Part shown: one piece after another, positions 6,286-34,778 of the stretch | Position numbering within the stretch: the first letter of the stretch is position 1 | Layout of the letters: every line of letters starts with the position of its first letter | From: Terrirubrum flagellatum | GTDB taxonomy: Bacteria; Pseudomonadota; Alphaproteobacteria; Rhizobiales; Beijerinckiaceae | Assembly (NCBI RefSeq): GCF_022059845.1 | Contig: NZ_CP091851.1 | Coordinates: 1,302,001 to 1,366,000 of the forward strand | Length of the DNA stretch: 64,000 nt | Direction of reading: 5' to 3' | The notes under the pieces: generated by a model | The model's database searches: none | What the model was told of the DNA's origin: nothing | The model's input: only the letters and a program-made list of their open reading frames with translations | Translations under genes and position numbers: made by a program

Positions 6286-6289
<4 letters not shown>
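5282..6289 (-). CDS. Peptide-type ABC transporter ATPase, OppF/DppF class
   Basis: This 335-residue ATPase couples ATP hydrolysis to import. It has Walker [10 protein letters not shown] at 57-65, signature FSGGQRQR near 164-171 and Walker B LIVCDEP near 184-190. The C-terminal oligopeptide-transporter region carries the cysteine pattern [14 protein letters not shown], typical of OppD/OppF proteins. Its start overlaps the stop of the neighbouring ATPase by four bases, as expected for translational coupling. It is the second ATPase of the importer encoded from 10832 down to 5282. Confidence 0.95.
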
Positions 6290-7327
<1,038 letters not shown>

Positions 7328-7344
<17 letters not shown>

Positions 7345-9153: not shown

Positions 9154-9194
9154 TTGGGGCGGCAGGCGGTTAGCGGCGTGTTCGAGGCTGCTTG

Positions 9195-10832: not shown

Positions 10833-10950
10833 TGTCCTGCCTCCCGTCCGAACCCTGCGATCGCTCAGCGTCGTCTCTGCGCGTCCGCCAATTGCGCTTT
10901 CATCGCGCGCGACCGTCGCTCGATTCCGTCACCTGTCACACGGAGTTTCT

Positions 10951-11688: not shown

Positions 11689-11701
11689 CGCAGCGTCTCT
11701 G

Positions 11702-11714
11702 ATTGTCAGACAAT
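11702..11714. promoter_or_regulatory. FCD-GntR operator, probably autoregulatory
   Basis: ATTGTC-A-GACAAT is a perfect 13-base palindrome whose core TTGTCAGACAA matches the FadR-subfamily consensus TNGTNNNACNA at every fixed position. It lies 13 bases upstream of the regulator start and about 85 bases before the divergent reductase start. A half-site TGACAAT recurs at about 11753-11759. The likely regulator is the adjacent FCD protein. Confidence 0.75.
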
Positions 11715-11797
11715 AATCAACTAGATTATCGTCAGCTACGTCGCTTTCTGCATGACAATATGGGATAGCAGCGGAAGCGCGACGAGGGATGGGCTGC

Positions 11798-12805
11798 ATG
11801 GCGGACGTGGTGATCTGGGGCTCCGGGGCGATCGGCGGCACGATCGGCGCCTACCTCGCAAGGGCTGGTCGGGAGGTGCTTTTCGTCGACATCGAACAGG
11901 CGCATGTCGACGCCATCAACAGCGGGCGCCTGGCGATCGAGGGGCCGATCGACGCGTTCAGCGTCGGCGGCGCGGCGAAGACGCCTGACGGGGTCAAAGG
12001 CGCATTTCCGCTCATTCTGCTGGCCGTGAAAGCGCACCACACCGAAGCTGCGACGCGCAGCCTTGCTCCGCATCTCGCTGAGAACGGCGCCGTCGTCTCC
12101 TGTCAGAACGGGCTGAACGAGCTCGTCATCGCCGACATCGTCGGGCGCGGGCGCACCATCGGCGCCTTCGTCAACTTCATGGCGGACTATCTCGAACCGG
12201 GACGCATCGCCTATGGCGGGCGTGGCGCCGTCGTGGTCGGCGAACTCCACGGCGCGCTCAGTGAGCGCCTCCAGTCGCTTCACGACTTGCTGCGCATTTT
12301 TGAACCGGACGCGATCCAGACCGACAACATCTTCGGCTATCTCTGGGGCAAGGCCGCCTATGGCCTCATTCTGAAAGCGTCCGCCGTCGCGGATGAATCG
12401 ATTATCGGATTCATCGCCAATCCGGAATGGCGCGCAAGCACGATCGCCATGATCCAGGAGGTGCTCCGCGCGGCCGAAGCCGCCGGCGTCATTCCGCTTG
12501 GCTTCAACGGATTTGATCCTGCCGCCTTTTCAAACGGCCACGCGGCGGCGATCGATTCCTCGATGCAAGCGTTGATCGCCTACAACAGCAAGGCGGCGAA
12601 GTCGCATAGCGGCGTGTGGCGCGACATCGTGGTGCGCCGCCGCCACACCGACGTCGCCGCTCAACTCGCGCCTGTCCAGAAAGCCGCGCGAGAGCATGGC
12701 GTCGCCACGCCGAAAGTCGATCGGCTCGTCGCGATGATCAAAGAGATCGAGACGGGCTCCAGATCTGTGGGCGCTGAATTCTATAGAGAGATATTGGCGA
12801 GTTAG
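11798..12805 (+). CDS. Ketopantoate-reductase-family NAD(P) oxidoreductase (PanE/ApbA-like)
   Basis: The product is 335 residues from the ATG at 11798, chosen over 11789 because GAGGG sits about 8-10 bases ahead of it. The N-terminal Rossmann fold has GSGAIGG at residues 8-14, followed by FVDIE, the NCQNGLNE-type catalytic loop and the C-terminal ApbA_C helical domain. PanE reduces 2-dehydropantoate in pantothenate synthesis. Its position beside an FCD regulator and a scavenging operon suggests a catabolic paralogue rather than the biosynthetic enzyme (inference). Confidence 0.85.
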   Translation: MADVVIWGSGAIGGTIGAYLARAGREVLFVDIEQAHVDAINSGRLAIEGPIDAFSVGGAAKTPDGVKGAFPLILLAVKAHHTEAATRSLAPHLAENGAVVSCQNGLNELVIADIVGRGRTIGAFVNFMADYLEPGRIAYGGRGAVVVGELHGALSERLQSLHDLLRIFEPDAIQTDNIFGYLWGKAAYGLILKASAVADESIIGFIANPEWRASTIAMIQEVLRAAEAAGVIPLGFNGFDPAAFSNGHAAAIDSSMQALIAYNSKAAKSHSGVWRDIVVRRRHTDVAAQLAPVQKAAREHGVATPKVDRLVAMIKEIETGSRSVGAEFYREILAS

Positions 12806-13464: not shown

Positions 13465-14112
13465 ATGCTCAAGATCTATGGAAGGAAAAGCTCTTTTAAC
13501 GTGCAGAAGGTCATGTGGCTCGTCGGCGAAATGCGACTTCCGCATCGCCACGTCGAACTAGGTGGACAATTCGGCGGTTTGGACACGAACGAATTTAGGG
13601 CGCTGAATCCGCACGGCAAGGTGCCTGTCGTCGATGACAACGGCATCGTCGTTTGGGAGTCGCATGCAATCTTGCGTTACTTGGCCGACCGCTACGGGCA
13701 TGGGTTGTTCTGGAACAGTGACCCGGCTGAACGTTCCCTGCCGGATCGATGGATGGATTGGGCGCAGACGACGTTGCAGCCAGATTTTCTGAACGGGGTC
13801 TTTTGGGGGTTCTATCGAACGCCGGAAGAGCGGCGTGATCTGCGTTCGGTCAATAGAAAAGTCGATCTTTGTTCCCAGCATTTCATGCTGTTGGACCGTC
13901 ATCTCGAGGATCGCGCCTTCATGCTCGGCGATGCGCTGACGCTCGCCGACATCCCGATCGGAACCCATCTCTACCGCTATTTCAATCTCGATATCGAACG
14001 CCCATCCGTTCTGAATGTGGAAGCGTGGTATGCGCGTCTGCAGGAGCGCGCCGCCTATCGGGAGCACGTCATGATTCCATTTCAGGAGCTCTATGGCCGT
14101 CTCGATTATTAG
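13465..14112 (+). CDS. Glutathione S-transferase
   Basis: The 215 residues carry an N-terminal thioredoxin-like domain (MLKIYGRKSSFNVQKVMW, with a Ser likely activating glutathione). NPHGKVPVVDDNG holds the cis-Pro, and WESHAILRYLADRYG is the glutathione gamma-glutamyl binding motif. A helical C-terminal domain has LTLADIPIGTHLYRY, the capping-box region. The start at 13465 has GAGG at good spacing; longer in-frame extensions add unrelated residues. It probably conjugates glutathione to, or removes it from, an electrophile. It stands alone between two intergenic regions. Confidence 0.93.
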   Translation: MLKIYGRKSSFNVQKVMWLVGEMRLPHRHVELGGQFGGLDTNEFRALNPHGKVPVVDDNGIVVWESHAILRYLADRYGHGLFWNSDPAERSLPDRWMDWAQTTLQPDFLNGVFWGFYRTPEERRDLRSVNRKVDLCSQHFMLLDRHLEDRAFMLGDALTLADIPIGTHLYRYFNLDIERPSVLNVEAWYARLQERAAYREHVMIPFQELYGRLDY

Positions 14113-14120
14113 TCGCCTGG

Positions 14121-14135
14121 GCGCGGCAGCCGCGC
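14121..14135. terminator. Possible bidirectional terminator hairpin
   Basis: GCGCGGC and GCCGCGC form a perfect 7-base inverted repeat around a single A, in the 36-base gap between the convergent transferase and MFS genes. No T-run follows on either strand, so intrinsic termination is uncertain. Confidence 0.35.
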
Positions 14136-14148
14136 AAGTTGAACGCGC

Positions 14149-15384
14149 TTAATCGCTTCTCATTCTGATTTCGCGCCAGAAGCGCTGGGTCAGAAGCAGC
14201 GCGACCAGCCCTTCGCAGCCGGTAATGATGGTGGCGAGCGGAGCGCCGAACGCATTGGCCAGCAGGCCGACCTGGAGAAAGCCGAGCGGGCCTATGCCGA
14301 TCGAGACCGAAAGGAGCCCGAGGATGCGCCCTCGCATCTCGGGCGTCGCGGAGCGAAACGCAAGCGTGGACTGGGTGATCGCGAAACCCGAGCCGCCGAG
14401 GCCAGCCATGAACAAAGCAACGCCGGCCAGCGAGGGGTCAGGCAACATCGCGAAAGTCGTCAGCGCGACGAGGTAGGCGAGCACGCTGTAGATGTAGAGT
14501 TTGGGATAGTAGGCGGGTCGTCCGAAAAAATAGACCACAAGGACTCCAGTGATTGCTCCGACGCCCTCCATGCTGGCGAGCAAGCCCACACCGGTCGGCC
14601 CGAGATGGAGGTTGTCTTTGCCGATCACCGGGATGAGGCTGAGATTCGGCCATGCGAACAGATTGAAGATGAAGGTGATCGCGAAGACGCCCAGCAGTCT
14701 TTTATCGCTGCGGACGAGCGCGACGGCGTCGAGAATGTTTCGGAGCCGGAGGCTCGAATTGTTCGGTTTATGGGGATTGCGATAGCGAATCCCTGCTGCG
14801 GCCAGAATGGCCAGGAGATACATGACGGCACCGAGCGCAAAGCAGCCATTGATGCCCCACGCCGCAAGCGCAGCGCCGCCAATCGCGGGTCCGGCCATGC
14901 GGCTCGCATTGCTGGAGCCGACGTCGAAAACCATGGCGTTGGCCATGCGATCGGGGCCAACGACTCGTCCTATCATCAGTCGTCGAAGCGGCATGTCCGT
15001 GGACCAAATCACCCCGCTCGTGAAGGTCGCGATCGCGAGATGCCAGATTTCGAGGCGGCCCGCATAAGCGAGAAACGCCATCGTCACGGACGTCGCCAGC
15101 AATGTCAGGGTGTTCAACAGCAGGACGGCGCGGCCTTCGACAAGATCCGCCGCGGCGCCCACGAAGGCGCCGAATAATGCGAGCGGAAGAACCCGAAGCA
15201 TCGTCAATAAAGTCACCAGAAAAGGCGAACCGGTGCTTTGATAGACGAAAATACCGATCGCGAGCATCTCGATCCAACGCACGCTGAACTGGACCGCGCC
15301 AACCAGCCACAGGCGCCAGAAGTCCGCTTCGCTAGGCCATCGATTGGGCTGCGCCTCGGCTGATTGCGCCAACTTCCGCTCCAC
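14149..15384 (-). CDS. MFS transporter, probable exporter
   Basis: The 411 residues have about twelve hydrophobic segments. The motif A region after segment 2 (FGAFVGAAADLVEGRAVLL) and the overall pattern fit the MFS_3/EntS-like group of single-component exporters. The gene starts 6 bases after the RibBA stop and is last in the monooxygenase operon. That position suggests export of a flavin, a toxic product or the cleaved remainder of the substrate (inference). A fluorescence- or uptake-related role is equally possible. No substrate can be assigned from sequence. Confidence 0.88.
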   Translation of the reverse strand: MERKLAQSAEAQPNRWPSEADFWRLWLVGAVQFSVRWIEMLAIGIFVYQSTGSPFLVTLLTMLRVLPLALFGAFVGAAADLVEGRAVLLLNTLTLLATSVTMAFLAYAGRLEIWHLAIATFTSGVIWSTDMPLRRLMIGRVVGPDRMANAMVFDVGSSNASRMAGPAIGGAALAAWGINGCFALGAVMYLLAILAAAGIRYRNPHKPNNSSLRLRNILDAVALVRSDKRLLGVFAITFIFNLFAWPNLSLIPVIGKDNLHLGPTGVGLLASMEGVGAITGVLVVYFFGRPAYYPKLYIYSVLAYLVALTTFAMLPDPSLAGVALFMAGLGGSGFAITQSTLAFRSATPEMRGRILGLLSVSIGIGPLGFLQVGLLANAFGAPLATIITGCEGLVALLLTQRFWREIRMRSD

Positions 15385-15390
15385 AACGCT

Positions 15391-16650
15391 TTATTCGACC
15401 GCGCTCGCGCAGACGCGGTCAAGCGACATCGATCGCGAGGGCTTGTCTTCTGCGAGATCCAGCAGGTGTCCCATTTTTTGCTGCTTGGCGCGCAGATATT
15501 GCAGATTGTGGCGAGTCGGCTTGGTGACGAGGGGCACGCGCTCGCTGATGCTCAATCCAAATTCCGCAATGCTGTCGTACTTTGCAGGGTTATTGGTCAT
15601 GAGGCGGATGCTCGTCACGCCGAGGTCTGCGAGGATCTGCGCTCCGACCGAATAGTCTCGCGCATCGACGGGAAGGCCAAGCTCGAGATTCGCCTCCAGC
15701 GTATCGCGGCCCTGGTCCTGCAGCCGATAGGCGCTGACCTTGTGTCCGATGCCGATGCCGCGTCCCTCATGGCCACGCAGATAAACGATTACGCCGCGGC
15801 CCTCGGCCGCGACGCGTGCAAACGCCTCATCCAGTTGGCGGCCGCAGTCGCAGCGCATTGATCCAAAGATATCGCCGGTGAGACACTCGGAATGGACTCT
15901 TACGAGCACGTTCGCGATCGACGCGACATCGCCCATGACGAGAGCGACATGCTGGATACCGTCAATGAGAGACTCATATACGTGGATAGCGAAGTCGCCA
16001 TGGCGCGTGGGAAGTCGCGCTTGCGACAGCCGTTTGACGAGCTGTTCGGTGCGCCGGCGATATTGGACGAGATCGCCTATGCTCGCGATTGTCAGGCCAT
16101 GCGTCTCGGCGAATGTTTCGAGCTGCCGACCGCGCGCCAGGGCGCCGTCATCGTTGACCACTTCGGCCAGAATGCCGGCGGGGTAAAGCCCGGCGGCTCG
16201 CGCAAGATCGACTGTCGCCTCGGTGGGGCGCATGCGACGCAGCACGCCGCCCTCGACTGCGCGCAGCGGGAAAATGTGGCCTGGCCGCGCGAGGTCTCCT
16301 GGTTTCGTGTCGGGATGAATGAGCGCGCGGATGGTCGCGACGCGATCCGCCGCCGAGATGCCGGTTGTCGTTCCATGGCGCGCGTCGACCGAGACCGTGA
16401 ACGCGCCTCGCTGCGCATCCGTGTTGTCGGCCGGCATCAGGGGCAATTGCAGTTCGTCGAGCCGTCTGCCGGGAAGCGCGGCGCAGATCACCCCGCTAGT
16501 GTGGCGCACCATGAACGCCACGGCCTCAGGCGTGGCGCGGGCGGCAGCCATGACGAGGTCACCCTCGTTCTTCTGCTCATCATCGACCAGAACGACGATC
16601 CGGCCTTTTGCGAGTTCCGTGACGGCTTGTTGTATGTTCGATGAAAGCAT
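15391..16650 (-). CDS. ribBA: RibBA: GTP cyclohydrolase II with a degenerate DHBP-synthase half
   Basis: The 419-residue fusion matches riboflavin-pathway RibBA. The C-terminal GTP cyclohydrolase II half looks intact: VHSECLTGDIFGSMRCDCGRQL with the three zinc Cys, YLRGHEGRGIGI, YRLQDQGRDTLEANLELG and MTNNPAKYD. The N-terminal half has the fold landmarks (VDDE, TSGVICAAL, GTTTGISAADR, RPGHIFPLR). However, the usual DDEDRENEGD reads DDEQKNEGD, one residue shorter and without the first catalytic Glu. The usual RAGHTEA reads RMRPTEA, without the metal-binding His. DHBP-synthase activity is therefore doubtful. It sits 34 bases after a flavin reductase, so it probably supplies flavin precursor to the operon. 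Confidence 0.9.
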   Translation of the reverse strand: MLSSNIQQAVTELAKGRIVVLVDDEQKNEGDLVMAAARATPEAVAFMVRHTSGVICAALPGRRLDELQLPLMPADNTDAQRGAFTVSVDARHGTTTGISAADRVATIRALIHPDTKPGDLARPGHIFPLRAVEGGVLRRMRPTEATVDLARAAGLYPAGILAEVVNDDGALARGRQLETFAETHGLTIASIGDLVQYRRRTEQLVKRLSQARLPTRHGDFAIHVYESLIDGIQHVALVMGDVASIANVLVRVHSECLTGDIFGSMRCDCGRQLDEAFARVAAEGRGVIVYLRGHEGRGIGIGHKVSAYRLQDQGRDTLEANLELGLPVDARDYSVGAQILADLGVTSIRLMTNNPAKYDSIAEFGLSISERVPLVTKPTRHNLQYLRAKQQKMGHLLDLAEDKPSRSMSLDRVCASAVE

Positions 16651-16684
16651 TGCGGGCGCGGCGCTTGTGGAGGGTCAAGATTCG

Positions 16685-17209
16685 TTATGTCGCGGCGCTT
16701 AGCGTCGTGTAGGTCTTGCCGCGGAAATAGACTAACGGCTCGCCTTCGCCGCGCGCGGCCGCGCCGACCACGGCGCCGATGATGATCGAAACATTTCCGC
16801 GTTCAATCACATCAGTGATGGAGCAGTCGAAGACGCCGAGCGCGTTCTTGTAGACCGGGGCGCCGGTGGTGAGCGTCGTCCACTCACCGTCGATGAAGCG
16901 CGCGGCGCCGGATAGCCCTGCCTTCCCGCCGAAGGCGTTGGCGACTGCCGCAGCATCGGAGGCGAGGAAATTCACCGCGAAGTGGCGTCGCGACAGAACG
17001 CCGGCGAGCGCGATGGTCTTGCGGTCGATCGACACCAGCATGGTGGCGGGGTCAGCCGCTACATGGGTCGCAGACAGACCGAGAAATCCGGTCGGGCCTT
17101 CGTCGCTATCGGCGGTGACGACCGTCATGCCGGTCGCCCGCTCGCTGAGAGTCTTCCAGAAAGTCTTGACGTCGATTGTCGGTGAGATCGGAGGAGTGAT
17201 GACCGTCAT
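16685..17209 (-). CDS. Flavin reductase (HpaC/RutF-type) serving the LLM monooxygenase
   Basis: The 174 residues start at the ATG at 17207-17209, which overlaps the upstream monooxygenase stop by four bases. A longer frame to 17578 is antisense-like low-complexity coding inside that gene. The split-barrel flavin-reductase domain shows the family pattern: ERATGMTVVTA, GPTGFLGLSATHVAADPATMLVSIDR, HFAVNFLASD, GAPVYKNALGVFDC and the final PLVYFRGKTYTTL. It reduces FMN with NAD(P)H and hands FMNH2 to the partner oxygenase. Translational coupling supports a one-to-one pairing with the LLM gene upstream. Confidence 0.9.
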   Translation of the reverse strand: MTVITPPISPTIDVKTFWKTLSERATGMTVVTADSDEGPTGFLGLSATHVAADPATMLVSIDRKTIALAGVLSRRHFAVNFLASDAAAVANAFGGKAGLSGAARFIDGEWTTLTTGAPVYKNALGVFDCSITDVIERGNVSIIIGAVVGAAARGEGEPLVYFRGKTYTTLSAAT

Positions 17210-18264
17210 TGAACGCGCTCCGCTTTTGCGCAGGGATCGGCGGCCGAGAGGCCCATCTCGCGCGCGACGAGTTCGTACGAGCGCAGACGATCCGCCGGAT
17301 CGTGCGTCATGGTCACGATCGCCATCTCGTCGGCCGCAAAAGTCTCGGAGAGACGACGAAGTTGCGCGGCGACTGCGCGCGCTTCGCCAAAGATGGTCGC
17401 GCCGCGAAGCTGTGCGATGCGCTCCTCCTCTCGCGCCGACAGGACCCGCGCCGCGATCTCGGATGGTCCAGGAAATGGCGTATGGCGCATGCGATCGCGA
17501 TCGAGCCGCCAGCAAGCATAGGGAAGAAACAGATCTTCGCCGAGGCTCGCTGTCGGCGCAGCGAGCGCCCAGACGCAAAGGCTCACATATGGCTTGCTGA
17601 AATGTCGGCCTGGCCGGAAGTGCGCGCGATAGGCGTCCAACGCCTCGGCGCAGCCTTCGCCGTCATGGAAGAAGTGGGCGAAACAGAACGGCAGCCCGAG
17701 ATGCCCGGCGAGACTCGCAGTGAACGGCGTGCTCCCGAGCAGCCAGGGTTGCGGCGCGGTTTCGCTCACCGGTTGGGCGCGGACGCCTGCAAACGGATGG
17801 TCGTCAGGCAACGGCTCGGTGAGCGACCATGCGATCACATCGCTGACATCGTTTGCGAAAGAGTCGGCGGCCGCCATCATCAGCGGATTGTCCATCATCG
17901 CCGGCCTCAGCGCGTAGCTTGTCTGGCGATCGGCGCCGGGGCCGCGGCCGATGCCGAGATCGATGCGTCCCGGCGCAAGCGCGTCGAGAACGCGAAACTG
18001 CTCGGCGACTTTCAGGGGCGCGTAGTGCGGCAGCATGACGCCGGCGCTGCCGATGCGGATCGAGCGCGTGATCGTCGCCAGCGCTCCAAGCAGGATCTCC
18101 GGGGCGGAGCCGGCGAGCGCCTCGTTGTTGTGATGCTCCGAAACCCAGTACCTGCAATAGCCGAGCTCCTCACACGCGCGCGCCAGCGCCAGCGACTCGC
18201 GGATGGAAGCATCGGGTGATCGTCCGGCGACAACGCCCGATTGATCGAGAACCGAGAGGCGCAT
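17206..18264 (-). CDS. Luciferase-like FMN monooxygenase, MsnO8-type
   Basis: The 352-residue TIM-barrel flavin monooxygenase belongs to the bacterial-luciferase superfamily. It has LDQSGV at the N-terminus, YWVSEHHNNEALAGSAPEILLGALA, RIGSAGVMLPHYAPLKVAEQFRVLDALAPGRIDLGIGRGPG and the C-terminal FGEARAVAAQLRRL segment, which together match the MsnO8 subgroup. It uses FMNH2 and O2, probably on a small organic sulfur or related compound (family-level inference). It lies 63 bases after one flavin reductase and is coupled to the next. Its sequence is far from the three tandem NtaA-type enzymes upstream. Confidence 0.9.
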   Translation of the reverse strand: MRLSVLDQSGVVAGRSPDASIRESLALARACEELGYCRYWVSEHHNNEALAGSAPEILLGALATITRSIRIGSAGVMLPHYAPLKVAEQFRVLDALAPGRIDLGIGRGPGADRQTSYALRPAMMDNPLMMAAADSFANDVSDVIAWSLTEPLPDDHPFAGVRAQPVSETAPQPWLLGSTPFTASLAGHLGLPFCFAHFFHDGEGCAEALDAYRAHFRPGRHFSKPYVSLCVWALAAPTASLGEDLFLPYACWRLDRDRMRHTPFPGPSEIAARVLSAREEERIAQLRGATIFGEARAVAAQLRRLSETFAADEMAIVTMTHDPADRLRSYELVAREMGLSAADPCAKAERVQ

Positions 18265-18327
18265 CAGGAACGCTCGATTCGACGACGGCTCACAGCAGGC
18301 TCCTTATCTTGCGTCAGCGGTTCGGCG

Positions 18328-18870
18328 TCAGGCGACGACGCGATGAAACTTGCGGCCGAAATAGACGAGGCCTTCCGAATTCTCCGCTTCGCGGACCGCG
18401 ACGACTTCGCAGAACAGCGCATCATGCGTGCCGATTTCGATGCTTCGAACGACGCGACAATCGAAGGCGACGTTCGCATCCGCGAGGCATGGAGCTCCGG
18501 TGACCAATGTGATCCAGTCGGCCCCGGTGAATCTTGCATCCATGTCTTTGACGCCATTTGCGCCTGCAAATCGCATCGAAAGCTCTTCATGCAGGCCCGA
18601 AACCGTGTTGACGCACAAGACACCGCTCTCCTTGATCACGGCGTAGGACTGGCTGCTGCGATTCATGCAGACGAGCAGGGTCGGCGGATCGTCGGTCACG
18701 CTGCAGACCGCAGACGCGGTGAACCCGCATGGGCCGGCGGGGCCGGCGCTTGTGATGATGTTGACGCCCGCCGCAAGCCTCGCCATGCCGCTCCGAAACG
18801 CCTTGCTGTCGACGGAGGAGGCAGGAATGTCGAACTCGGGAGCGGCAGCGATCGCCAGATTGCTTGTCAT
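18328..18870 (-). CDS. Flavin reductase (HpaC/RutF-type)
   Basis: The start at 18868-18870 gives 180 residues with GAGG six bases upstream. A longer frame to 18900 adds ten residues without better evidence. The split-barrel motifs are present: FRSGMARLAAGVNIITSAGPAGPCGFTASAVCSVTDDPPTLLVCMNR, VLCVNTVSG, FDCRVVRS, GLVYFGRKFHRV. It is distinct from the second reductase in the same operon, implying two FMNH2 supplies for two monooxygenase types. It starts 39 bases after the last tandem NtaA-type gene and probably serves those. Confidence 0.9.
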   Translation of the reverse strand: MTSNLAIAAAPEFDIPASSVDSKAFRSGMARLAAGVNIITSAGPAGPCGFTASAVCSVTDDPPTLLVCMNRSSQSYAVIKESGVLCVNTVSGLHEELSMRFAGANGVKDMDARFTGADWITLVTGAPCLADANVAFDCRVVRSIEIGTHDALFCEVVAVREAENSEGLVYFGRKFHRVVA

Positions 18871-18909
18871 GGATGCCTCGCTAACGAAGAGGGGCGACAA
18901 CTCACCGTC

Positions 18910-20223
18910 TCAGAATTCAAGAAGCGTCTCGCGGAGTGTGGTTTTCGTGTATTGCGTGCGCACGAGGCCGCGTCGTTGCAGCGCCGGGATCAGGCCCTCG
19001 CAGATTTCCGAAATATATCGGCGGTTCACGAGAGTCGTCTGAGGCTTCGTGATCAGGAAGCCGTCGCCTCCAACCTGCTCGGCGACCTGCTCCATGTAGT
19101 CGGCGACGGAGTCAGGCGTGCCGACCATCCCTTCGAGGCCGCGCGAGATATTGTCCCAGACCAGCTCGCGCAGCGTCTTGCCGCTGCCCCACTGGGCGAA
19201 GGCGTCGAGCGAACCTTGCTCGCCATTGGTGGTGAGCGGCGGCAGCTCCTTGTCGAGATCGAACCTGGAAAAGTCGATGTCCGATGTCGAACTGCGGCCG
19301 GCTAGCGTTTTCTCGATGTAATAGGGCGCCGACTGGATGCGCTTGAGCTTGTCCATAGCTTCGGATCGGGTCGCGCCGAGAATGGGCGAGACCACGAACA
19401 GGACTTTGACTTCGTCCGGATTGCGGCCGGCTGCGGCTGCGTGAGCGCGGACGTCGTCGCGATAGGCCTTGTTGGCTTTGACGCCAGCTGATGGAGCGAT
19501 GATGCTGTCGGCGGTCAAGGCGGCGAATTTCCGGCCGCGCGGCGATCCGCCCGCCTGCACGAATGCTGGGCGACCCTGCGGCGAAGGCGCCGTGTTGAGC
19601 GGGCCGCGGCATTTGAAATATTTTCCGACGAAGTTGATCGGCCGCACTTTCCTGTGGTCCGCGTAGGTTCCACTTTGGCGATCGAGTACGACTGCGTCAG
19701 CCTCCCAGCTCCCCCAAAGCTGTTTGACCAGTTCGACATATTCGTCGGCCATATCGTAGCGGGCCTGACGCGGCGGTAATTCGTCCATACCGAAATTCTG
19801 CGCCGCGAGATTCTCGCCTGACGTGACGATGTTCCACCCGAATCTGCCTTTGCAGATATGATCCAGCGTGTTGCAGAGCCGCGCGAGCATGAAGGGCGGA
19901 TAGGCCATGGTCGAGAGCGTCGCGACCACGCCCATTCTCTGGGTATTGGCGCCGAGCAGCGCTGCAAGCGGCGCGGGGTCGTGCTTCGGCCCCATGATGG
20001 CGTGCTTGAGATAGGCTTGAGGGCTGTGACCGTAGGAGTCGGAGATCATCAGGGTGTCTTCGATCATGATGTAGTCGAAGCACGCGCGCTCCATCTCCTG
20101 CGCCCAGTCGATGAAGAACTTGCCGTCCCAGGGTTGTCCGCCCGCCGACGTGAGCGGACGCTCCCATTCGTCGGGCGTGAAATTCATGAACCATCCCAGG
20201 TGAAACTTCTTCTTCGCGCCCAT
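18910..20223 (-). CDS. NtaA/SnaA/DszA-family FMN monooxygenase, tandem copy 3
   Basis: This is a 437-residue LLM-class monooxygenase that uses FMNH2 and O2. Landmarks are FHLGWFMNF, MERACFDYIMIEDTLM, GVVATLSTMAYPPFMLARLCNTLDHICKGRFGWNIVTSGEN and RYDMADEYVELVKQLWGSW. A distinctive tail has LTTNGEQGSLDAFAQWGSGKTLREL and ends TLRETLLEF. Three ATGs stand in a row; the third (20221-20223) is best spaced from GAAAGG. The long upstream frame to 20556 merely rereads the end of the preceding paralogue. The family includes nitrilotriacetate, EDTA, sulfone and S-alkylcysteine oxygenases, so the substrate is open. Confidence 0.92.
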   Translation of the reverse strand: MGAKKKFHLGWFMNFTPDEWERPLTSAGGQPWDGKFFIDWAQEMERACFDYIMIEDTLMISDSYGHSPQAYLKHAIMGPKHDPAPLAALLGANTQRMGVVATLSTMAYPPFMLARLCNTLDHICKGRFGWNIVTSGENLAAQNFGMDELPPRQARYDMADEYVELVKQLWGSWEADAVVLDRQSGTYADHRKVRPINFVGKYFKCRGPLNTAPSPQGRPAFVQAGGSPRGRKFAALTADSIIAPSAGVKANKAYRDDVRAHAAAAGRNPDEVKVLFVVSPILGATRSEAMDKLKRIQSAPYYIEKTLAGRSSTSDIDFSRFDLDKELPPLTTNGEQGSLDAFAQWGSGKTLRELVWDNISRGLEGMVGTPDSVADYMEQVAEQVGGDGFLITKPQTTLVNRRYISEICEGLIPALQRRGLVRTQYTKTTLRETLLEF

Positions 20224-20273
20224 CATCATGCCTTTCGTCGACTTTCCGTCGGACCTGATCGCCCTGCTTGCAA

Positions 20274-21581
20274 TCAGAACTCGCGCAACGTCTCGCGCAG
20301 CGTGCTCTTGGTGTATGAGGTGCGCGTGAGTCCGCGCCGCTGCAGGGCGGGAACCAGCCCTTCGCAAATGTCGGTGATGTATTGGCGGCTGACGAACGTG
20401 GTGTGCGGGCGCGTGATCAGGAAGCCGTCGCCGCCAATCTTTTCCATGATCTCTCCCATATTGGCGGAAACGCGATCCGGCGTGCCGACCATGCCGTCGA
20501 GACCGCGGGAGACCTGCTCCATGACGATCTGGCGCAGCGTCCTGCCGCTGCCCCATTGCGCGAAGGCGTCGAGCGAGCCTTGTTCGCCGTTGGTGGTCAG
20601 GCGCGGCAGCTCCTTGTCGAGATCGAATTTCGCGAAGTCGATATCGGTGATGGAGCTGATGCCCGCCAGCGTCCGCTCGATGAATGACGGGGATTGCCGG
20701 ATACGCTCGAATTTGGCCTGCGCCTCAGCGTCGGTTTCGCCGAGAATGGGCGCGACCACGAACAGCACCTTGATCTCGTCAGGATCGCGTCCGGCGGCGA
20801 TGGCGCGCGCCCGCACATCGTCGCGATAGGCCTTGTTGCCCTGGACGCCGGCCGACGGCGCGATGATGCTGTCGGCCGTTTCCGCCGCGAACTGGCGACC
20901 GCGCGGCGAGCCGCCTGCCTGCACGAAGGCCGGCCGGCCCTGCGGGGAGGGAGCGGTGTTGAGAGGCCCGCGGCACTTGTAGTATTTGCCCACGAAATCG
21001 ATCGGCCGCACTTTGGTGTAGTCCGCGTAGGTCTCGTTATTGTGATCGAGCACGACGGCGTCGGGGTCCCAGCTCCCCCAAAGCTGTTTGACCAGCTCGA
21101 CATATTCGTCGGCCATGTCATAGCGATCCTGGCGTGGCGGCAATTCGTCCATGCCGAAATTGCGTGCGGCGTGATTTTCGCCTGACGTAACGATGTTCCA
21201 ACCGAACCGGCCCTTGCAGATGTGGTCCAGCGTATTGCTGACACGCGCCAGCATGAAGGGCGGCCAGGCCATGGTGGACATGGTGGCGACGATGCCCATG
21301 TGTTTGGTGTTGGCGCCGAGCAACGCCGCAAGCGGCGTGGGATCATGTTTTGGCGCCATGATCGCGTGCTTGAGATAGGCCTCGGAGGTGCCGCCATAAG
21401 CTTCCGAAATCATCAGCGTGTCTTCAAGCATGATATAGTCGAAGCAGGCCCGCTCCATCGCCTGCGCCATGCCGATGTAGAATTTGCCATCCCATGGGCG
21501 GCCGCCCGATGTGAAAGGCAGCATCCATTCGTCGGTAATGAAATTGGTGAACCAGCCAAGGTGGAATTTCTTTGTCGGCAT
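20274..21581 (-). CDS. NtaA/SnaA/DszA-family FMN monooxygenase, tandem copy 2
   Basis: The 435-residue paralogue of its two neighbours is near-identical to them in long blocks, such as the FGWNIVTSGEN, KVRPIDFVGKYYKCRGPLNTAPSPQG and AGGSPRGRQFAAETADSI regions. The ATG at 21579-21581 has GGAA upstream. The frame to 21917 is the out-of-frame end of copy 1. Differences cluster around residues 1-50 and the DADAVVLD/YADYTK loop, which may tune the substrate pocket. It ends TLRETLREF. The genes on either side are separated by about 50-60 bases, so all three are probably on one transcript. Confidence 0.92.
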   Translation of the reverse strand: MPTKKFHLGWFTNFITDEWMLPFTSGGRPWDGKFYIGMAQAMERACFDYIMLEDTLMISEAYGGTSEAYLKHAIMAPKHDPTPLAALLGANTKHMGIVATMSTMAWPPFMLARVSNTLDHICKGRFGWNIVTSGENHAARNFGMDELPPRQDRYDMADEYVELVKQLWGSWDPDAVVLDHNNETYADYTKVRPIDFVGKYYKCRGPLNTAPSPQGRPAFVQAGGSPRGRQFAAETADSIIAPSAGVQGNKAYRDDVRARAIAAGRDPDEIKVLFVVAPILGETDAEAQAKFERIRQSPSFIERTLAGISSITDIDFAKFDLDKELPRLTTNGEQGSLDAFAQWGSGRTLRQIVMEQVSRGLDGMVGTPDRVSANMGEIMEKIGGDGFLITRPHTTFVSRQYITDICEGLVPALQRRGLTRTSYTKSTLRETLREF

Positions 21582-21637
21582 GTGCTTCCGGTTTCCGATT
21601 GGCGCGTTCGTGGAGACTCTCTGGAGCTGGCTCACTC

Positions 21638-22942
21638 CTAGAATTCGAGCAGCGTCTCGCGCAGCGTGCTCCTGGTGTATTCGGTTCGCACGACGCCGCG
21701 GCGCTGCAACGCCGGCACCAAGCCTTCGCAGATTTCGTTCACATAACGGCGGCTGATCTTCTGGAATGGTGAATTGATCAGAAAACCGTCGCCCTGGAAC
21801 TCCTCGTTCACCTCGATCAGCCGCTCGGCGACCTGCTCGGGCGTGCCGACCATGCCGTCGAGTCCGCGCTTGGCGCGATCCTTGACGAGCTGGCGGAGCG
21901 TCTTGCCGCTGCCCCATTGCGCAAACGCGTCGAGCGAACCTTGCTCGCCATTCGTCGTCAGACGCGGCAGTTCGGAGTCGAGATCGAATTTGGAGAAGTC
22001 GATGTCGGTGACGGAGCTGATGCCCGCCAGCGCCTTCACGATATAGTCGGGCGAGTCGAAGTAGAGATCGAATCTCTCCTGGGCTGCGGCCTTGGTTTCC
22101 GCCAGCACCGGCGCCACGATGAAGAGGACCTTGATGTCGTCCGGATTGCGCCCCGCCGCTGCGGCGCGCTTGCGGATGTCGTCGCGATACTCCCGCATCG
22201 CTTCGACGCCGGAGGCCGCTGCGATGATGCTGTCAGCGGTTTCCGCGGCGAACTGGCGACCGCGCGGCGAGCCGCCGGCTTGCACAAAAGCAGGCCGGCC
22301 CTGCGGCGAAGGCGCGGTGTTGAGCGGGCCGCGCACCTTGTAATATTTGCCGGAAAAATTGATGGGCCGGACTTTTCTGTAATCCGCGTAAGTGCTGGTT
22401 TCCCGATCGAGGACGACGGCGTCGGGGTCCCAGCTTTTCCATAGCGCGCTGACGACCTGGATGTATTCGTCCGCCATGTCATATCGCTGCTGGCGCGGCG
22501 GCAGCTCATCCATGCCGAAATTGCGCGCTGCATGATTCTCGCCTGTCGTGACGATGTTCCAGCCGAAGCGGCCGGTGCAGATGTGATCAAGCGTTGTGCA
22601 AAGACGCGCCAGCATGAAGGGCGGATAGGCCATGGTCGAAAATGTAGCGACCACACCCATGCTCTTGGTGGCGGCGCCGATCAGCGCCGCCTGCGGCGCC
22701 GGATCCATTTTAGGCCCCATGAGGGCGTACTTCAGGTATGCCTCGGTGCTATCGCCATAGGCGTCGGCGATCATCAACGTATCTTCGAGCATGATGTAAT
22801 CGAAGCACGCACGCTCCATCGCCTTCGCCATATCGACGAAGAATTCACCATCCCAGGGATTGCCGTTCGCCGAGAAAGGCTGATTCCAGTCGTCGACCGT
22901 GGCGGTCATGAACCAGCCGAGGTGAAATTTTTTTGCGGCCAC
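21638..22942 (-). CDS. NtaA/SnaA/DszA-family FMN monooxygenase, tandem copy 1
   Basis: This 434-residue monooxygenase is first of the three tandem copies. I place the start at the GTG at 22940-22942, which has GAGGGAAG upstream and aligns VAAKKFHLGWF with the ATG starts of the other copies. The frame continues to 23296, but that part has no family resemblance. Motifs are as in the other copies (YIMLEDTLMIADAYG, NIVTTGENHAARNFGMDELPPR, LTTNGEQGSLDAFAQWGSGKTLRQL, TLRETLLEF). It lies 286 bases downstream of the SBP gene on the same strand, so either a promoter lies in that gap or the SBP is co-transcribed. Confidence 0.9.
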   Translation of the reverse strand: MAAKKFHLGWFMTATVDDWNQPFSANGNPWDGEFFVDMAKAMERACFDYIMLEDTLMIADAYGDSTEAYLKYALMGPKMDPAPQAALIGAATKSMGVVATFSTMAYPPFMLARLCTTLDHICTGRFGWNIVTTGENHAARNFGMDELPPRQQRYDMADEYIQVVSALWKSWDPDAVVLDRETSTYADYRKVRPINFSGKYYKVRGPLNTAPSPQGRPAFVQAGGSPRGRQFAAETADSIIAAASGVEAMREYRDDIRKRAAAAGRNPDDIKVLFIVAPVLAETKAAAQERFDLYFDSPDYIVKALAGISSVTDIDFSKFDLDSELPRLTTNGEQGSLDAFAQWGSGKTLRQLVKDRAKRGLDGMVGTPEQVAERLIEVNEEFQGDGFLINSPFQKISRRYVNEICEGLVPALQRRGVVRTEYTRSTLRETLLEF

Positions 22943-23002
22943 TTGCTGCTTCCCTCTAGGTTGGCGTCGGCGCGGTCCGACGCGGCCGCTGACACCGAAA
23001 TC

Positions 23003-23015
23003 ATCGCATTGCGAT
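23003..23015. promoter_or_regulatory. Operator-like palindrome ahead of the monooxygenase operon
   Basis: ATCGCA-T-TGCGAT is a perfect 13-base palindrome in the 286-base gap upstream of the first tandem monooxygenase, about 60 bases before its GTG start. The position suits a repressor site or activator half-sites. No particular regulator can be named. Confidence 0.35.
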
Positions 23016-23228
23016 CCGGGAAAACCATCGGGAATGCCACAAGCATCTCCCGCCTTGTTCGACGATTTCGCCTTGGGCAGTCGCACGCAAAAAGAGGCAG
23101 CGTGACGGATGTCGGCGCGCGAACTATCGTGCGAATCGTGAAGATTGTGCAGGAAATGCGATCGATGCGTCACCGCCGCGATGCGGCCGGTCCGGCCGCG
23201 CCTGTCTCGCAAGATATCGTTGCAGTGC

Positions 23229-24818
23229 TTACGCGTCCTTGGACAGAAGATAATACGATATCGGCATTTCCCACTTGAACAGTTCACCGCGCGCATTCTT
23301 GTTGAGCGTGAAATTGCGGCTGAGGAAGCAGGGGATGATGACGCCGGATTCGAGCGCGACGCGGCGCAACGCGTCCTTGTACATCTCGACCTGCTTCGCG
23401 GGATCTGATTCGACCAGCGCCTTGTCGATGAATTCGCGCAGCTTGCCGTCCTGGTCGAAGTTTACGCCGTCCGCGTAAGGCGTGCCCTTGGCGAAAACGA
23501 GATCAAGAGCGTCGTGCGCGTTGCGACGGTAATTGTAGTCGACATAGGTGGGATACTTGATCCACACCTGATCCCAATATGTCGCGGCGGGCCATTGGTT
23601 GACCGTGACGCGGATTCCGGCGGCTTTGACGGATTCAGCAAACGTGACCGCAAGGTCGACCATGCCGGGAAGGATGGGCGAGGTGTAGAGCGTGAACTCG
23701 AGGCCATTGGGAAAACCAGCCTCGGCCAGCAATTTCTTCGCGCCGGGAATGTCCTGGGCGCCGTCGCCGAGATCGGTGGGAAACATTGGATCGCCGGGCG
23801 GCAATGGAACATCAGGCGTGATCACGCCGAGTCCCTGATAGACGGTGTCGAGGATTAGCTTGCGGTCGACGGCAAGCTTGATCGCGCGCCTTACGCGCAC
23901 ATCGTCGAAAGGCTTCACTTTCTGGTCGAGAAAGATGCACCACGACATCGCGCTCGGCAGCGGCTCCACCCTGACTTTGGGATTGGCGGCGAGCTGTTTG
24001 ACGAGAACCGAGTCGACCGGATCGATGAGGTCGACCGCGCCCGAGATCACGGATTGCACCTTCGCGCTCTGGTCCGGAATGTTGATGCATTGGATCCCGT
24101 CAAGGAGCGGCACGCCGGGCTGCCAATATCCTGCGAACCGTTCAACCTGCCAGGATTGGCCGGGTTCGAAACTCTTGATCTTGAAGGGGCCGGTGCCGAT
24201 CGCGGTTTTTGGGTCGGCGGTCGGGACGGTTCCCGCCTTGATGATCCCCGTATTGTAGCGCGAGAGCGGTTGGTCGAGCATCGTATCGCGCCGGAGCATG
24301 TGGATCCTGACGGTGTGCTCGTCGACCGCTTCGAGGCTGCCGGCGTTGAAGCTTCCTTTCAGGCGCGATCGCAGCGATGCGCCGACCTTTTCGTCGACGA
24401 GACGCCCAAGCGAGTAGATGACGTCTTTGGCCGTCAGCGGCGAGCCGTCGTGAAACTTGACACCCTTGCGCAGATGGAATGTCCAGATGTTCTTGTCTCT
24501 GTCGAGTTCATAGGACTCGGCGAGCCAGGGAGAGAACTTCCAGTCTTTCCCGCGCCTGACCAGCGGCTCGAAAATGACATGCATAAGTTCGATGCTGGCG
24601 CCGTTCTGCACGGTCGCCGGGTCCATCTGCTCGCCGGCATTCGTGTCGCCGAAGCCATATCGCAAGACGCCGCCGCGCTTCTCGTTCGCAAGCGCGGGGC
24701 AAGCCGCAATGGCTGACAGAAGTCCGCCGCCGGCTGCGGCTGCGCCAAGCAGGAGTTGACGGCGATCGAGCCACGCGTCGTTGAAGAACTCGTCTGCCGG
24801 ATCGATAGGTTTCGCCAT
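23229..24818 (-). CDS. Substrate-binding protein, SBP family 5 (Tat signal)
   Basis: The 529-residue periplasmic receptor has DRRQLLLGAAAAGGGLLSAIAACPALA as a twin-arginine-type signal. The SBP_bac_5 landmarks include LRKGVKFHDGSPLTAKDVIYSLGRLVD. It is divergent from a LysR gene and precedes the monooxygenase operon. The permease/ATPase genes that could serve it are at 25-32 kb beyond the LysR gene, so the importer is split around the regulator. From memory, an SBP of this type occurs with monooxygenases in the 'KPN_01854-01858 system' described by protein-family models. The match here is unverified. Confidence 0.92.
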   Translation of the reverse strand: MAKPIDPADEFFNDAWLDRRQLLLGAAAAGGGLLSAIAACPALANEKRGGVLRYGFGDTNAGEQMDPATVQNGASIELMHVIFEPLVRRGKDWKFSPWLAESYELDRDKNIWTFHLRKGVKFHDGSPLTAKDVIYSLGRLVDEKVGASLRSRLKGSFNAGSLEAVDEHTVRIHMLRRDTMLDQPLSRYNTGIIKAGTVPTADPKTAIGTGPFKIKSFEPGQSWQVERFAGYWQPGVPLLDGIQCINIPDQSAKVQSVISGAVDLIDPVDSVLVKQLAANPKVRVEPLPSAMSWCIFLDQKVKPFDDVRVRRAIKLAVDRKLILDTVYQGLGVITPDVPLPPGDPMFPTDLGDGAQDIPGAKKLLAEAGFPNGLEFTLYTSPILPGMVDLAVTFAESVKAAGIRVTVNQWPAATYWDQVWIKYPTYVDYNYRRNAHDALDLVFAKGTPYADGVNFDQDGKLREFIDKALVESDPAKQVEMYKDALRRVALESGVIIPCFLSRNFTLNKNARGELFKWEMPISYYLLSKDA

Positions 24819-25141
24819 GGATTAGTTTGCTCCGAGGATGCGAAAGCTAATCGGCCGCGGAAGAAACGAACTATCGGAAAAGCGACAAGCTTCAGTCGGC
24901 GAGGAGGCCGATTTTAGTTTAGGCAAGAACACAAAAATGCAGCAGTAAGCTGCTGGCGCGCGCAGGACCACGAGCGTGGTTCGCTGATCCTAAGACGCAG
25001 CGCGGTTGGACTGATGTCGATTCCGTAGGACCGGCGCCTAAAGCTTGGGCGAAAATTGCTTGGCACAATTGTTGCAAATCCGTCCTACCAGGGGGGAGCC
25101 GAAGCGGGTGGCCGAGTTTCTTCGTTGAAGGAGCGAGCCCC
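24819..25141. promoter_or_regulatory. Divergent promoter region, SBP and LysR genes
   Basis: These 323 bases hold a sigma-54-like promoter facing the LysR gene (listed separately). They also hold a perfect 6-base dyad ACCACG-AG-CGTGGT at 24967-24980 and a CAGCAG-TAAG-CTGCTG hairpin near 24943-24960. The dyads are candidate LysR sites. The promoter for the leftward SBP gene was not identified. Confidence 0.5.
25061..25076 (+). promoter_or_regulatory. Sigma-54 (RpoN) -24/-12 promoter upstream of the LysR gene
   Basis: TGGCACAATTGTTGCA matches the sigma-54 pattern TGGCAC-N5-TTGCW, with GG and GC exactly 10 bases apart. Only the G commonly found after CAC differs (A here). The implied transcript start near 25088 leaves about 55 bases of leader before the LysR ATG. 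Sigma-54 promoters need an enhancer-binding activator and often respond to nitrogen or, for SfnR-type activators, sulfur state. None is encoded in this window. Confidence 0.7.
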
Positions 25142-26176
25142 ATGTCAGGTCCAAGCCAGATCTATGATATCGACTTGAAGCTGCTGCGCTGCTTTTGCGC
25201 TATCGTTGAAGGAGGCAGCTTCACTGCGGCGCAGGCGGCGCTGAATCTTTCACAGTCCGTGCTCAGCGAGCATCTCAAATCGTTGGAGATACGTTTAGGC
25301 GCGCGCCTGTGCCAACGCGGGCCGAAAGGCTTCAAACTGTTTCGGGAAGGCGAAGTCGTCTATCAGGCGGCGAGAGATCTCTTTGCTTCGATTGAACTCT
25401 TCAAGCAACGCGCTTCGACCTTGAACGCGACAGCCCACGGCGAGTTGGTGGTCGGCATTCAGGATGGCATCGTCGACAATCCGCATGCGCGCATCTCCGA
25501 GGCGATCGAAAACTTCACCGCCTGCTATCCGAACATCCGCTTCAAGATCGAGATCATGCTGGGCTTCCAGATGGCGGGCAGGGTCGCTGACGGCCTGATT
25601 CATGTTGGCGTCGGGCTCGTGACCGATCAGTTTGAACAGCTCACATTCGAGCGTTTGTTCGATGAGGTGACGCTTCTCTGTTGCGGACGCACGCACCCGC
25701 TGTTCGACATTCCGGATCGGATGATCACGACGGAACACATTGCGTCGGCGGCCTATTGCAACAGGGGGCATCTCGAAGACATTCATCCCAGCCCCAACGG
25801 CCATTATTTCAAAACCTTCGGGGACATCGGACATGGAGCGCACGCCAAGTTGGCGCTGGTTCTGTCTGGCCGCAACATCGGCTATGTGCCCGAGCATGTC
25901 GCGAAGCCCCATATCGAGTCAGGAGCGTTGCGCGTTCTCAAACCGGAGCTGACTCGCCGCGTCAGCCCGATAACCGCGGTGACGCGGCCTAATTCGCCGG
26001 ATTTCAAGCTTGCCGAGCGGTTCGTCGACAGTCTTGTGGAAATTCACATGGAGGCGGCTGCAGCGGCGCGTCGCGCTGAAGCGGCGTCGCGGGCCGACGG
26101 AGCGGGCCCAGTCAGCGTTCCGCAGTTGCGGTCTCCCAAGCTGGCGAGCGTTCAGGCGTTGTGCCGAACCGCGTAG
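25142..26176 (+). CDS. LysR-family transcriptional regulator
   Basis: The 344 residues have an N-terminal winged helix-turn-helix (DLKLLRCFCAIVEGGSFTAAQAALNLSQSVLSEHLKSLEIRLGARLCQRG), followed by a periplasmic-binding-like effector domain. The C-terminal tail from about residue 295 is Ala/Arg-rich. GAAGGAG lies eight bases before the ATG. It is divergent from the SBP gene and converges, with a 25-base overlap, on the EamA gene. It probably controls the flanking importer and monooxygenase genes. Its own promoter looks sigma-54-dependent, which is uncommon for LysR genes. Confidence 0.92.
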   Translation: MSGPSQIYDIDLKLLRCFCAIVEGGSFTAAQAALNLSQSVLSEHLKSLEIRLGARLCQRGPKGFKLFREGEVVYQAARDLFASIELFKQRASTLNATAHGELVVGIQDGIVDNPHARISEAIENFTACYPNIRFKIEIMLGFQMAGRVADGLIHVGVGLVTDQFEQLTFERLFDEVTLLCCGRTHPLFDIPDRMITTEHIASAAYCNRGHLEDIHPSPNGHYFKTFGDIGHGAHAKLALVLSGRNIGYVPEHVAKPHIESGALRVLKPELTRRVSPITAVTRPNSPDFKLAERFVDSLVEIHMEAAAAARRAEAASRADGAGPVSVPQLRSPKLASVQALCRTA

Positions 26177-34717: not shown

Positions 34718-34778
34718 AGCTCAGGTTTCCGCGATGAACTGACTGCAGCGACGCCTTTCTGACGGGCGAGAGCAGGCC

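Follow-up and report, generated by a model that had tools for sequence, protein, structure and literature searches.

We studied a flavin monooxygenase operon in a 64,000-nucleotide stretch of the Terrirubrum flagellatum genome (hereafter the window; G000:C1:1302001-1366000 of a 6.38-Mb genome in 4 contigs). The operon encodes three flavin mononucleotide (FMN)-dependent monooxygenases of the NtaA/DmoA family (OxA, OxB and OxC), two flavin reductases (Red1 and Red2), an MsnO8-type luciferase-like monooxygenase, a RibBA-like flavin-synthesis protein and an MFS exporter-type transporter. The core of this gene set recurs in 8 other genomes and the set therefore exceeds chance. We consider it moderately probable that the operon belongs, as one arm, to a conserved LysR regulon through which starved cells take up an amino-acid-like compound and cleave it oxidatively; the starvation signal is probably nitrogen, and cleavage of a C-S bond is slightly favoured over that of a C-N bond. 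A first-pass annotation had listed the eight minus-strand genes as one closely spaced unit with a single overlap; all of them were present in that arrangement, and the family labels given to them (three NtaA-type oxygenases, two reductases, an MsnO8-type oxygenase, RibB and RibA domains, MFS) were borne out by family scans. The cluster is indeed an assembled one, but it had been cut too short: its most conserved parts, i.e., a LysR-type regulator, a fourth oxygenase (OxD) and a HisJ-type amino-acid importer of the ATP-binding cassette (ABC) class, lie outside the eight genes (Table 1).

The distribution of the cluster was examined with OxB as query in 397 genomes of the order; at E<=1e-120 it matched 21 of them, one being the genome of the window itself. 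Neighbourhoods from 16 of the 20 other matches were used (G174, G247, G283 and G403 were left out), and seven of them (G045, G128, G307, G258, G092, G111 and G242) carried LysR, an OxB-type gene, OxD and the importer together. The contig of G220 ended too early to show the cluster, and the remaining OxB relatives, about 60-66% identical, were in other settings. In a class-wide sample of 385 genomes, 5 further genomes matched at E<=1e-150; stretches from 4 were used (G668 was left out), and one genome of the same class, G518, carried the cluster, bringing the relatives to 8 in total, 7 from the same order and 1 from the same class. Absence from a relative here means absence from the stretch examined, not from the genome. 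LysR, the OxB-type oxygenase, OxD and the importer's substrate-binding protein (SBP), both permeases and ATPase were present in all 8 relatives, Red2 in 7, and OxA, Red1 and the MsnO8-type oxygenase in 6 each. In G242 the best query for the OxB-type gene was OxC, of the same clade, and in G307 the MsnO8-type gene stood apart from the operon, adjoining the gene of a MATE-type exporter. A Marinibacterium plasmid held a partial version, with LysR (47%), an OxB-type gene (67%) and the importer present and OxD absent; this locus also holds an M20 amidohydrolase gene. Since neither the order-wide nor the class-wide OxB search matched a second genome from the family to which the window belongs, the distribution is sporadic, and it suggests horizontal spread. 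An all-against-all gene comparison over ten loci (minimum 38% identity across 60% of the shorter sequence) returned, beyond the cluster genes and ABC parts, a single family common to at least two loci, glucan-metabolism enzymes (by Pfam; an open reading frame (ORF) pair) in G242 and G518, which we took as unrelated to the cluster. As no other cluster-linked family repeats among the ten loci, the recurring content is limited to oxygenases, reductases, flavin synthesis, transport and the regulator; the ORF set used for this comparison missed the MsnO8-type and RibB genes in L143 and L146, and protein-to-DNA searches recovered both.

The loci have an upstream element in common, which in most of them reads GCTT-N5-(A/T)TT-N4-GAT(G/A)G. 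The sites used for training were initially picked out by eye, and a matrix was built from the 8 other loci with the window excluded. The two best matches to it in the 64 kb, both correctly oriented, were the sites before OxA and before SBP5, the gene of an SBP_bac_5 substrate-binding protein and probably the first gene of the operon. In 15 Markov-resampled windows the maxima ranged from 9.3 to 18.7, so that the OxA site counts mainly through its position. The starts of OxD (in the window and L143) and of MATE (in L031) were fixed by comparison with the relatives before the element was tested. When leave-one-out matrices were used, few windows (2-11 of 148 or 480) reached the top score of the 300 bases before OxD, and this held in 9/9 loci; the best score before MATE was reached by 1 and 2 of 148 windows in L031 and L146. 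In extended stretches, the best match of G128 preceded an Opp-MATE-EamA block, 170 bases ahead of its first Opp permease gene (score 15.5), and that of G307 adjoined MATE (score 9.2). Because the same element precedes SBP5, OxA and, weakly, OxD, the SBP5-OxA operon and the OxD-importer genes look like one LysR regulon, with the element as the putative LysR box.

The LysR gene is itself preceded by a sequence that fits the -24/-12 consensus of sigma54 promoters, TGGCAC-N5-TTGCA, and that is the only perfect sigma54 core in the window. A scan for TGGCAC-N5-TTGC over the ten loci (244,516 bp) gave 5 perfect cores (window, L031, L143, L144 and L146), all located upstream of LysR and reading into it. 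At the same place L149 and L213 had a single mismatch and L147 two, L145 had a one-mismatch site inside the called 5' end of LysR, and L166 had none. Elsewhere in the window's genome, such a site precedes each of three genes: urtA, of a urea importer (549 bits with TIGR03407; cut-off 493), a gene of the circularly permuted ATP-grasp type, and a glycosyltransferase gene. Of the other sites, one is inside an ORF and two have no or only a short ORF downstream. The site before LysR thus favours nitrogen limitation as the signal. In NAC-type cascades, sigma54 and NtrC transcribe a LysR-type gene whose product activates sigma70 operons. The present arrangement is alike in having a -24/-12 site before a LysR gene that apparently controls nutrient-scavenging operons, and unlike in that this LysR is cluster-borne and apparently dedicated, NtrC control being putative.

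Table 1. Genes and regulatory sites of the cluster region (positions are those of the window)
Feature	Position	Strand	Remarks
MFS exporter-type transporter	14149-15384	minus	GTG start; PF05977/PF07690
RibBA-like protein	15391-16650	minus	RibB and RibA domains
Red2, second flavin reductase	16685-17209	minus	PF01613; 4-base overlap with the MsnO8-type gene
MsnO8-family luciferase-like monooxygenase	17206-18264	minus	TIGR03558, 358.0 bits
Red1, RutF-like flavin reductase	18328-18870	minus	PF01613; TIGR03615, 210.1 bits, under cut-off
OxC, OxB duplicate particular to the window	18910-20229	minus	TIGR03860, 395.0 bits; tree
OxB, NtaA/DmoA-family monooxygenase	20274-21581	minus	TIGR03860, 398.3 bits
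OxA, NtaA/DmoA-family FMN-dependent monooxygenase	21638-22942	minus	GTG start; TIGR03860, 406.1 bits
Promoter element, second copy	23019-23052	minus	starts 110 bases before OxA; score 14.0, 2nd of 480 windows
SBP5, SBP_bac_5 substrate-binding protein, probable first operon gene	23229-24818	minus	PF00496
Promoter element, putative LysR box	24865-24898	minus	starts 80 bases before SBP5; score 26.0, 1st of 480 windows of 300 bases
Sigma54 -24/-12 site TGGCAC-N5-TTGCA	25061-25076	plus	starts 81 bases before the LysR ATG
LysR-type regulator, divergent from SBP5	25142-26176	plus	53-65% identity to relatives' copies
EamA-type transporter	26152-27186	minus	kept in 4/8 relatives
MATE-type exporter	27039-28502	minus	kept in 4/8 relatives
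Oligopeptide-type ABC ATPases (fused) and permeases, likely SBP5 partners	28499-32414	minus	
Promoter element, weak copy	32389-32422	plus	about 125 bases before the likely OxD start; score 4.6
OxD, fourth NtaA/DmoA-family monooxygenase, separate orthologue group	32465-33832	plus	TIGR03860, 394.3 bits
HisJ/ArgT-type amino-acid ABC importer	33866-37035	plus	preceded by OxD
Importer SBP	33866-34717	plus	
Importer permeases	34779-35480 and within 35204-36286	plus	
Importer ATPase	36283-37035	plus	

With the start sites chosen, the gaps from OxA to the MFS gene were 56, 44, 39, 63, -4 (the overlap), 34 and 6 bases. OxA, OxB, OxC and OxD all exceeded the curated TIGR03860 cut-off (279.7) and belong to the NtaA/DmoA family; the MsnO8-type protein likewise exceeded that of TIGR03558 (166.95). 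Neither reductase reached the RutF equivalog cut-off of TIGR03615 (254.75), Red2 scoring 90.3 bits, and both are still PF01613 members. The whole genome has 10 NtaA-family places above cut-off, the four oxygenases OxA-D of the cluster region among them. In the scan of positions 14000-25400, no sigma70 promoter was found (2.4 expected), and terminator-like matches were at chance level (9 versus 9.1).

Relationships among the oxygenases were resolved in a maximum-likelihood tree of 38 rows, with clade supports of 100/93 for OxA, 97/95 for OxB and 100/100 for OxD. The OxA of G518 was left out of the tree; it is split over two overlapping ORFs in different frames (L213 10973-12339), which may reflect a frameshift or a sequencing error. 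Window OxB and OxC were sisters inside the OxB clade (support 97/84), and hence the three tandem oxygenases represent two old groups plus one local duplicate. The earlier count of three NtaA-type oxygenases was right as to family, but it covered two old orthologue groups and a window-specific duplicate, with a fourth, distinct member outside the span. In a comparison with solved chains, run for OxA, OxB and OxD, the best relatives were DszA for OxA (276 bits), DmoA for OxB (254) and DmoA and YtnJ for OxD (226). EmoA scored 157, 142 and 142 bits, respectively, and 3sdo, titled nitrilotriacetate monooxygenase, 178-200 bits, so the enzymes of the ethylenediaminetetraacetate (EDTA) and nitrilotriacetate (NTA) type, at 142-200 bits, were more distant than the best of DmoA and DszA, at 226-276 bits. 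The oxygenase scores alone do not fix the substrate.

The first-pass annotation had proposed stepwise oxidation of a sulfur or nitrogen source. This stood in part, insofar as the system is assembled and apparently co-regulated, with conserved oxygenases and reductases and with importers that fit nutrient uptake; between the two elements, the sigma54 site points to nitrogen and the nearest solved oxygenases mostly to sulfur. A pure sulfur-scavenging operon, induced by sulfur limitation and acting on S-alkylcysteines, sulfones or sulfonates, would suit both the relatedness to DszA, DmoA and YtnJ and an oxygenase pairing that resembles CmoO and CmoJ (see below). Against this count the sigma54 sites before LysR and urtA and the lack, in the flanks, of any recurring gene family linked to cysteine or sulfite, and we regard such an operon as unlikely. 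Degradation of an aminopolycarboxylate or opine-like chelator likewise seems improbable. It would involve C-N cleavage of N-carboxyalkyl amino acids, as performed by NtaA and EmoA on NTA and EDTA, with SBP5 and the HisJ/octopine-type importer carrying the chelator or opine. The best NCBIfam match of SBP5, below its cut-off, was a NikA-type model, a nitrogen source would agree with the sigma54 site, opine carriers occur among the HisJ-type importers, and chelator and opine pathways need few other enzymes; however, for OxA, OxB and OxD alike, EmoA was one of the solved NtaA-family relatives with the lowest scores, and SBP5 was found in only 1/8 relatives. The chelator proposal overlaps the C-N branch of the uptake-and-cleavage regulon and the sulfur proposal its C-S branch, and the confidences expressed in them are not meant to sum to one.

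Known clusters were then set beside this one. In the Bacillus subtilis ytmI operon, a LysR-type regulator and an importer of the amino-acid ABC type are encoded together with the flavin gene ribR; CmoJ is the same protein as YtnJ, and CmoO belongs to the luciferase-like proteins. In the S-alkylcysteine salvage pathway of that species, CmoO and CmoJ form a pair performing S-oxidation and C-S cleavage, in which two flavin oxygenases, one being of the DszA/YxeK kind, work in sequence with reduced flavin (PMC10863075). A gene set of this type, i.e., an NtaA-type and a second flavin oxygenase, a reductase and an amino-acid importer, is present in the window, and the second oxygenase class in 6/8 relatives; CmoO/CmoJ is the closest studied analogue. 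The window cluster differs in that no acetylation or deacetylation enzyme recurs, the flavin gene is RibB or a RibBA with only the RibA function, the OxA, OxB and OxD groups stand together, and a sigma54 site precedes LysR. The yxe/scm operon for S-(2-succino)cysteine is similar in pairing the FMN-dependent monooxygenase YxeK with a three-component ABC importer; it has a single oxygenase, and its acetyltransferase YxeL and deacetylase YxeP are without counterpart in the shared gene set (PMC9706529). The EDTA and NTA clusters bear on the comparison as well. Those clusters (epp-emoAB, ntaAB) combine an NtaA-family oxygenase with a flavin reductase, and for EDTA with an SBP_bac_5 importer, as in the window cluster. 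They are set apart by the distant score of EmoA, and in the window by the HisJ-type core importer and the added MsnO8-type oxygenase and flavin gene. In a literature search, mostly of titles and abstracts, no paper naming a cluster like the present one was found.

The flavin gene was the least uniform part of the cluster. A flavin-biosynthesis gene, which the annotation had placed in the unit, is present in 5/9 clusters including the window, but RibBA is probably not bifunctional. When compared with 38 sequences (33 aligned and 5 loci checked by motif), window RibBA lacks the intact motifs of 3,4-dihydroxy-2-butanone 4-phosphate (DHBP) synthase: it has QK- in the acidic loop where all 38 others have R-E, and RPTE where all have GHTE. 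Its GTP cyclohydrolase II zinc and catalytic motifs (HSECLTGD...RCDCG and YLRGHEGRG) are intact. DHBP synthase mutants at Glu39, Glu41 and His154 are reported to lose activity (PMC5228156), and in our reading of the alignment the changes correspond to Glu39 and His154. Because residues needed for DHBP synthase are lost, window RibBA is probably a GTP cyclohydrolase II only. The other RibBA of the genome (L169, G000:C1:4365828) keeps the DHBP synthase motifs and is missing the GTP cyclohydrolase II cysteines; one genome thus holds two RibBA proteins with complementary apparent defects, in the DHBP synthase half of the window copy and in the GTP cyclohydrolase II half of the housekeeping copy. 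Two further GTP_cyclohydro2 places were found in the genome. In four relatives the cluster flavin gene is RibB only, with intact motifs, and since these have RibB alone and the window a RibBA with a degenerate RibB half, the recruitment of flavin supply seems to have happened separately in them, through different enzymes.

An Rfam scan found no FMN riboswitch in the window at gathering score. The idea of a second flavin gene escaping riboswitch control was rejected, as the single FMN riboswitch of the genome, which precedes an apparent lumazine synthase ORF, is near neither RibBA copy. The annotation had called it unusual for one unit to hold two oxygenase classes, each followed by its own reductase, plus a flavin-synthesis gene; a flavin gene next to flavin oxygenases has precedents. 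In the ipp cluster of Rhodococcus D-6, a RibB-like (DHBP-synthase-like) gene lies between the flavin monooxygenase gene and its reductase gene, ippA1 and ippA2; this pathway is an aromatic one, for 2-isopropylphenol, with another oxygenase family (PMC12442392). Plasmids L172 (Variovorax RA8) and L175 (Rhodococcus ZPP) carry an accessory RibBA next to a flavin-reductase gene with a luciferase-like monooxygenase (LLM) gene near, which suggests that genes for flavin supply sometimes accompany those of flavin oxygenases; in two Mesorhizobium plasmid copies an LLM gene stands two genes away, and there is no reductase. A flavin-directed system that makes, modifies and exports flavins, either as a secretion module or through riboflavin-lyase-like chemistry leading to lumichrome, could draw on several facts: the RibBA gene lies 6 bases before the MFS gene, a flavin-secretion module with a transporter has been hypothesised for Sinorhizobium meliloti (PMC9478397), and the riboflavin lyase RcaE belongs to the same superfamily as the oxygenases. 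We nevertheless find it highly unlikely, as solved relatives other than RcaE came closest to OxA, OxB and OxD, MFS was in none and RibB in only 4 of the 8 relatives, and the conserved importers fit an incoming nutrient.

Transport genes also bear on whether the oxygenases might instead build a secreted metabolite exported by MATE, EamA and MFS. The MFS exporter, counted in the first-pass annotation as a member of the unit, was absent from all 8 relatives, and the exporters that recur are MATE and EamA, in 4/8 and, in all four, after or beside the LysR box. These placements and the three exporter types near the window cluster would fit metabolite tailoring, but no scaffold-building enzyme recurs, the importer is kept in 8/8 relatives versus 4/8 for MATE-EamA, and the exporters could instead remove a toxic product; such tailoring appears quite unlikely. 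The SBP5/Opp importer was shared with G128 only, where the block of SBP5, LysR, EamA, MATE, ATPases and permeases repeats as in the window; its oligopeptide ATPase/permease block is 70-74% identical there and is not part of the conserved core. The ORF at 28499-30406 (minus) is a 635-amino-acid fusion of both oligopeptide ABC ATPases, with OppD- and OppF-like halves, and a 71%-identical fusion was found in L234 (G128).

Several observations weigh against the starvation-induced regulon as we propose it. The box before window OxD is weak, its score being equalled or beaten in 11/480 windows, and no box was found before MATE and EamA in the window, nor before EamA in L144. The exact TGGCAC-N5-TTGCW sites are little enriched in the whole genome (7, versus 4 for the reversed control), and a simple scan of nine upstream regions gave no common dyad or NtrC site. 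The importer SBP had its top score with a basic-amino-acid binder, yet under every curated cut-off, and RibB occurs in only 4/8 relatives. No N-acetyltransferase or deacetylase family recurs among the ten loci, unlike in the B. subtilis S-alkylcysteine and S-(2-succino)cysteine pathways. The alkane oxygenase LadA followed the best solved relatives closely (222 bits with OxA, 228 with OxB and 212 with OxD) and, being nearly equal in score, makes the likeness to sulfur enzymes weak evidence. Sigma54 regulation, with SfnR, also serves sulfur use in Pseudomonas (titles cited in PMC13352529), and nitrogen is for that reason favoured rather than proved.

With these points in mind, the regulon could work as follows. 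A starvation signal, probably nitrogen, would lead sigma54 RNA polymerase to transcribe the LysR gene from the promoter site observed there, and the LysR protein, presumably by binding the shared box, would activate the operon from SBP5 and OxA to MFS and the OxD-ABC operon. The HisJ-type importer, perhaps aided by the SBP5/Opp importer, would take the compound in, its family being evident and its substrate conjectural. Red1 and Red2 would make FMNH2, with which OxA, OxB/C, OxD and the MsnO8-type enzyme might oxidise the compound or close analogues stepwise, in the manner of CmoO (S-oxidation) and CmoJ (C-S cleavage), to give an aldehyde together with an amine or a sulfur product. Flavin supply may be raised by the additional GTP cyclohydrolase II in the window and by DHBP synthase in 4 relatives. 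Only tentatively, and as rather doubtful when all its parts are taken jointly, do we put forward a cascade not described before, from sigma54 through a dedicated LysR to several operons, running a multi-oxygenase pathway for a natural amino-acid-like compound outside the known pathways and with an independently gained private flavin supply (a stand-alone DHBP synthase in relatives; in the window a RibBA whose dead DHBP synthase half complements a housekeeping RibBA of opposite defect). If the regulon reading is right, four or five class-C flavin oxygenases would make up a nutrient-scavenging regulon that is transferable and whose regulatory logic is clear. The ligand of the HisJ-type protein and the starvation that switches on the LysR gene would then offer a route to the substrate, and the pair formed by RibBA with the dead DHBP synthase half and housekeeping RibBA with the apparently dead GTP cyclohydrolase half would make a pathway-private flavin supply directly testable.

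Other markers did not extend the cluster. Among the best 80 loci of a longer list of MsnO8-type relatives, some on short contigs, no comparable oxygenase-reductase cluster was found; with RibBA as marker, 0/29 same-order loci (L177-L205) had such an oxygenase or reductase within up to 1.5 kb on either side, and three neighbourhoods of Red2 relatives on plasmids lacked the cluster. No consistent clue to the substrate came from the genes next to OxB relatives of about 60% identity, among them NMT1- or SBP-type importers, creatininase and short-chain dehydrogenase/reductase (SDR) genes. On a Salipiger plasmid (L167 10001-13644), a urea-type ABC importer precedes a group made up of an OxB-like oxygenase gene (60%) and, after it, a creatininase-family gene and two SDR genes. 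On plasmid pFiD188 (L168 10001-11302), a 52%-identical NtaA-family oxygenase gene adjoins the fas (cytokinin) genes of Rhodococcus fascians. Within the window, a second dipeptide-type ABC operon (2 ATPases, 2 permeases and an SBP_bac_5 protein) with a GntR/FCD regulator gene occupies positions 5282-11841 of the minus strand.

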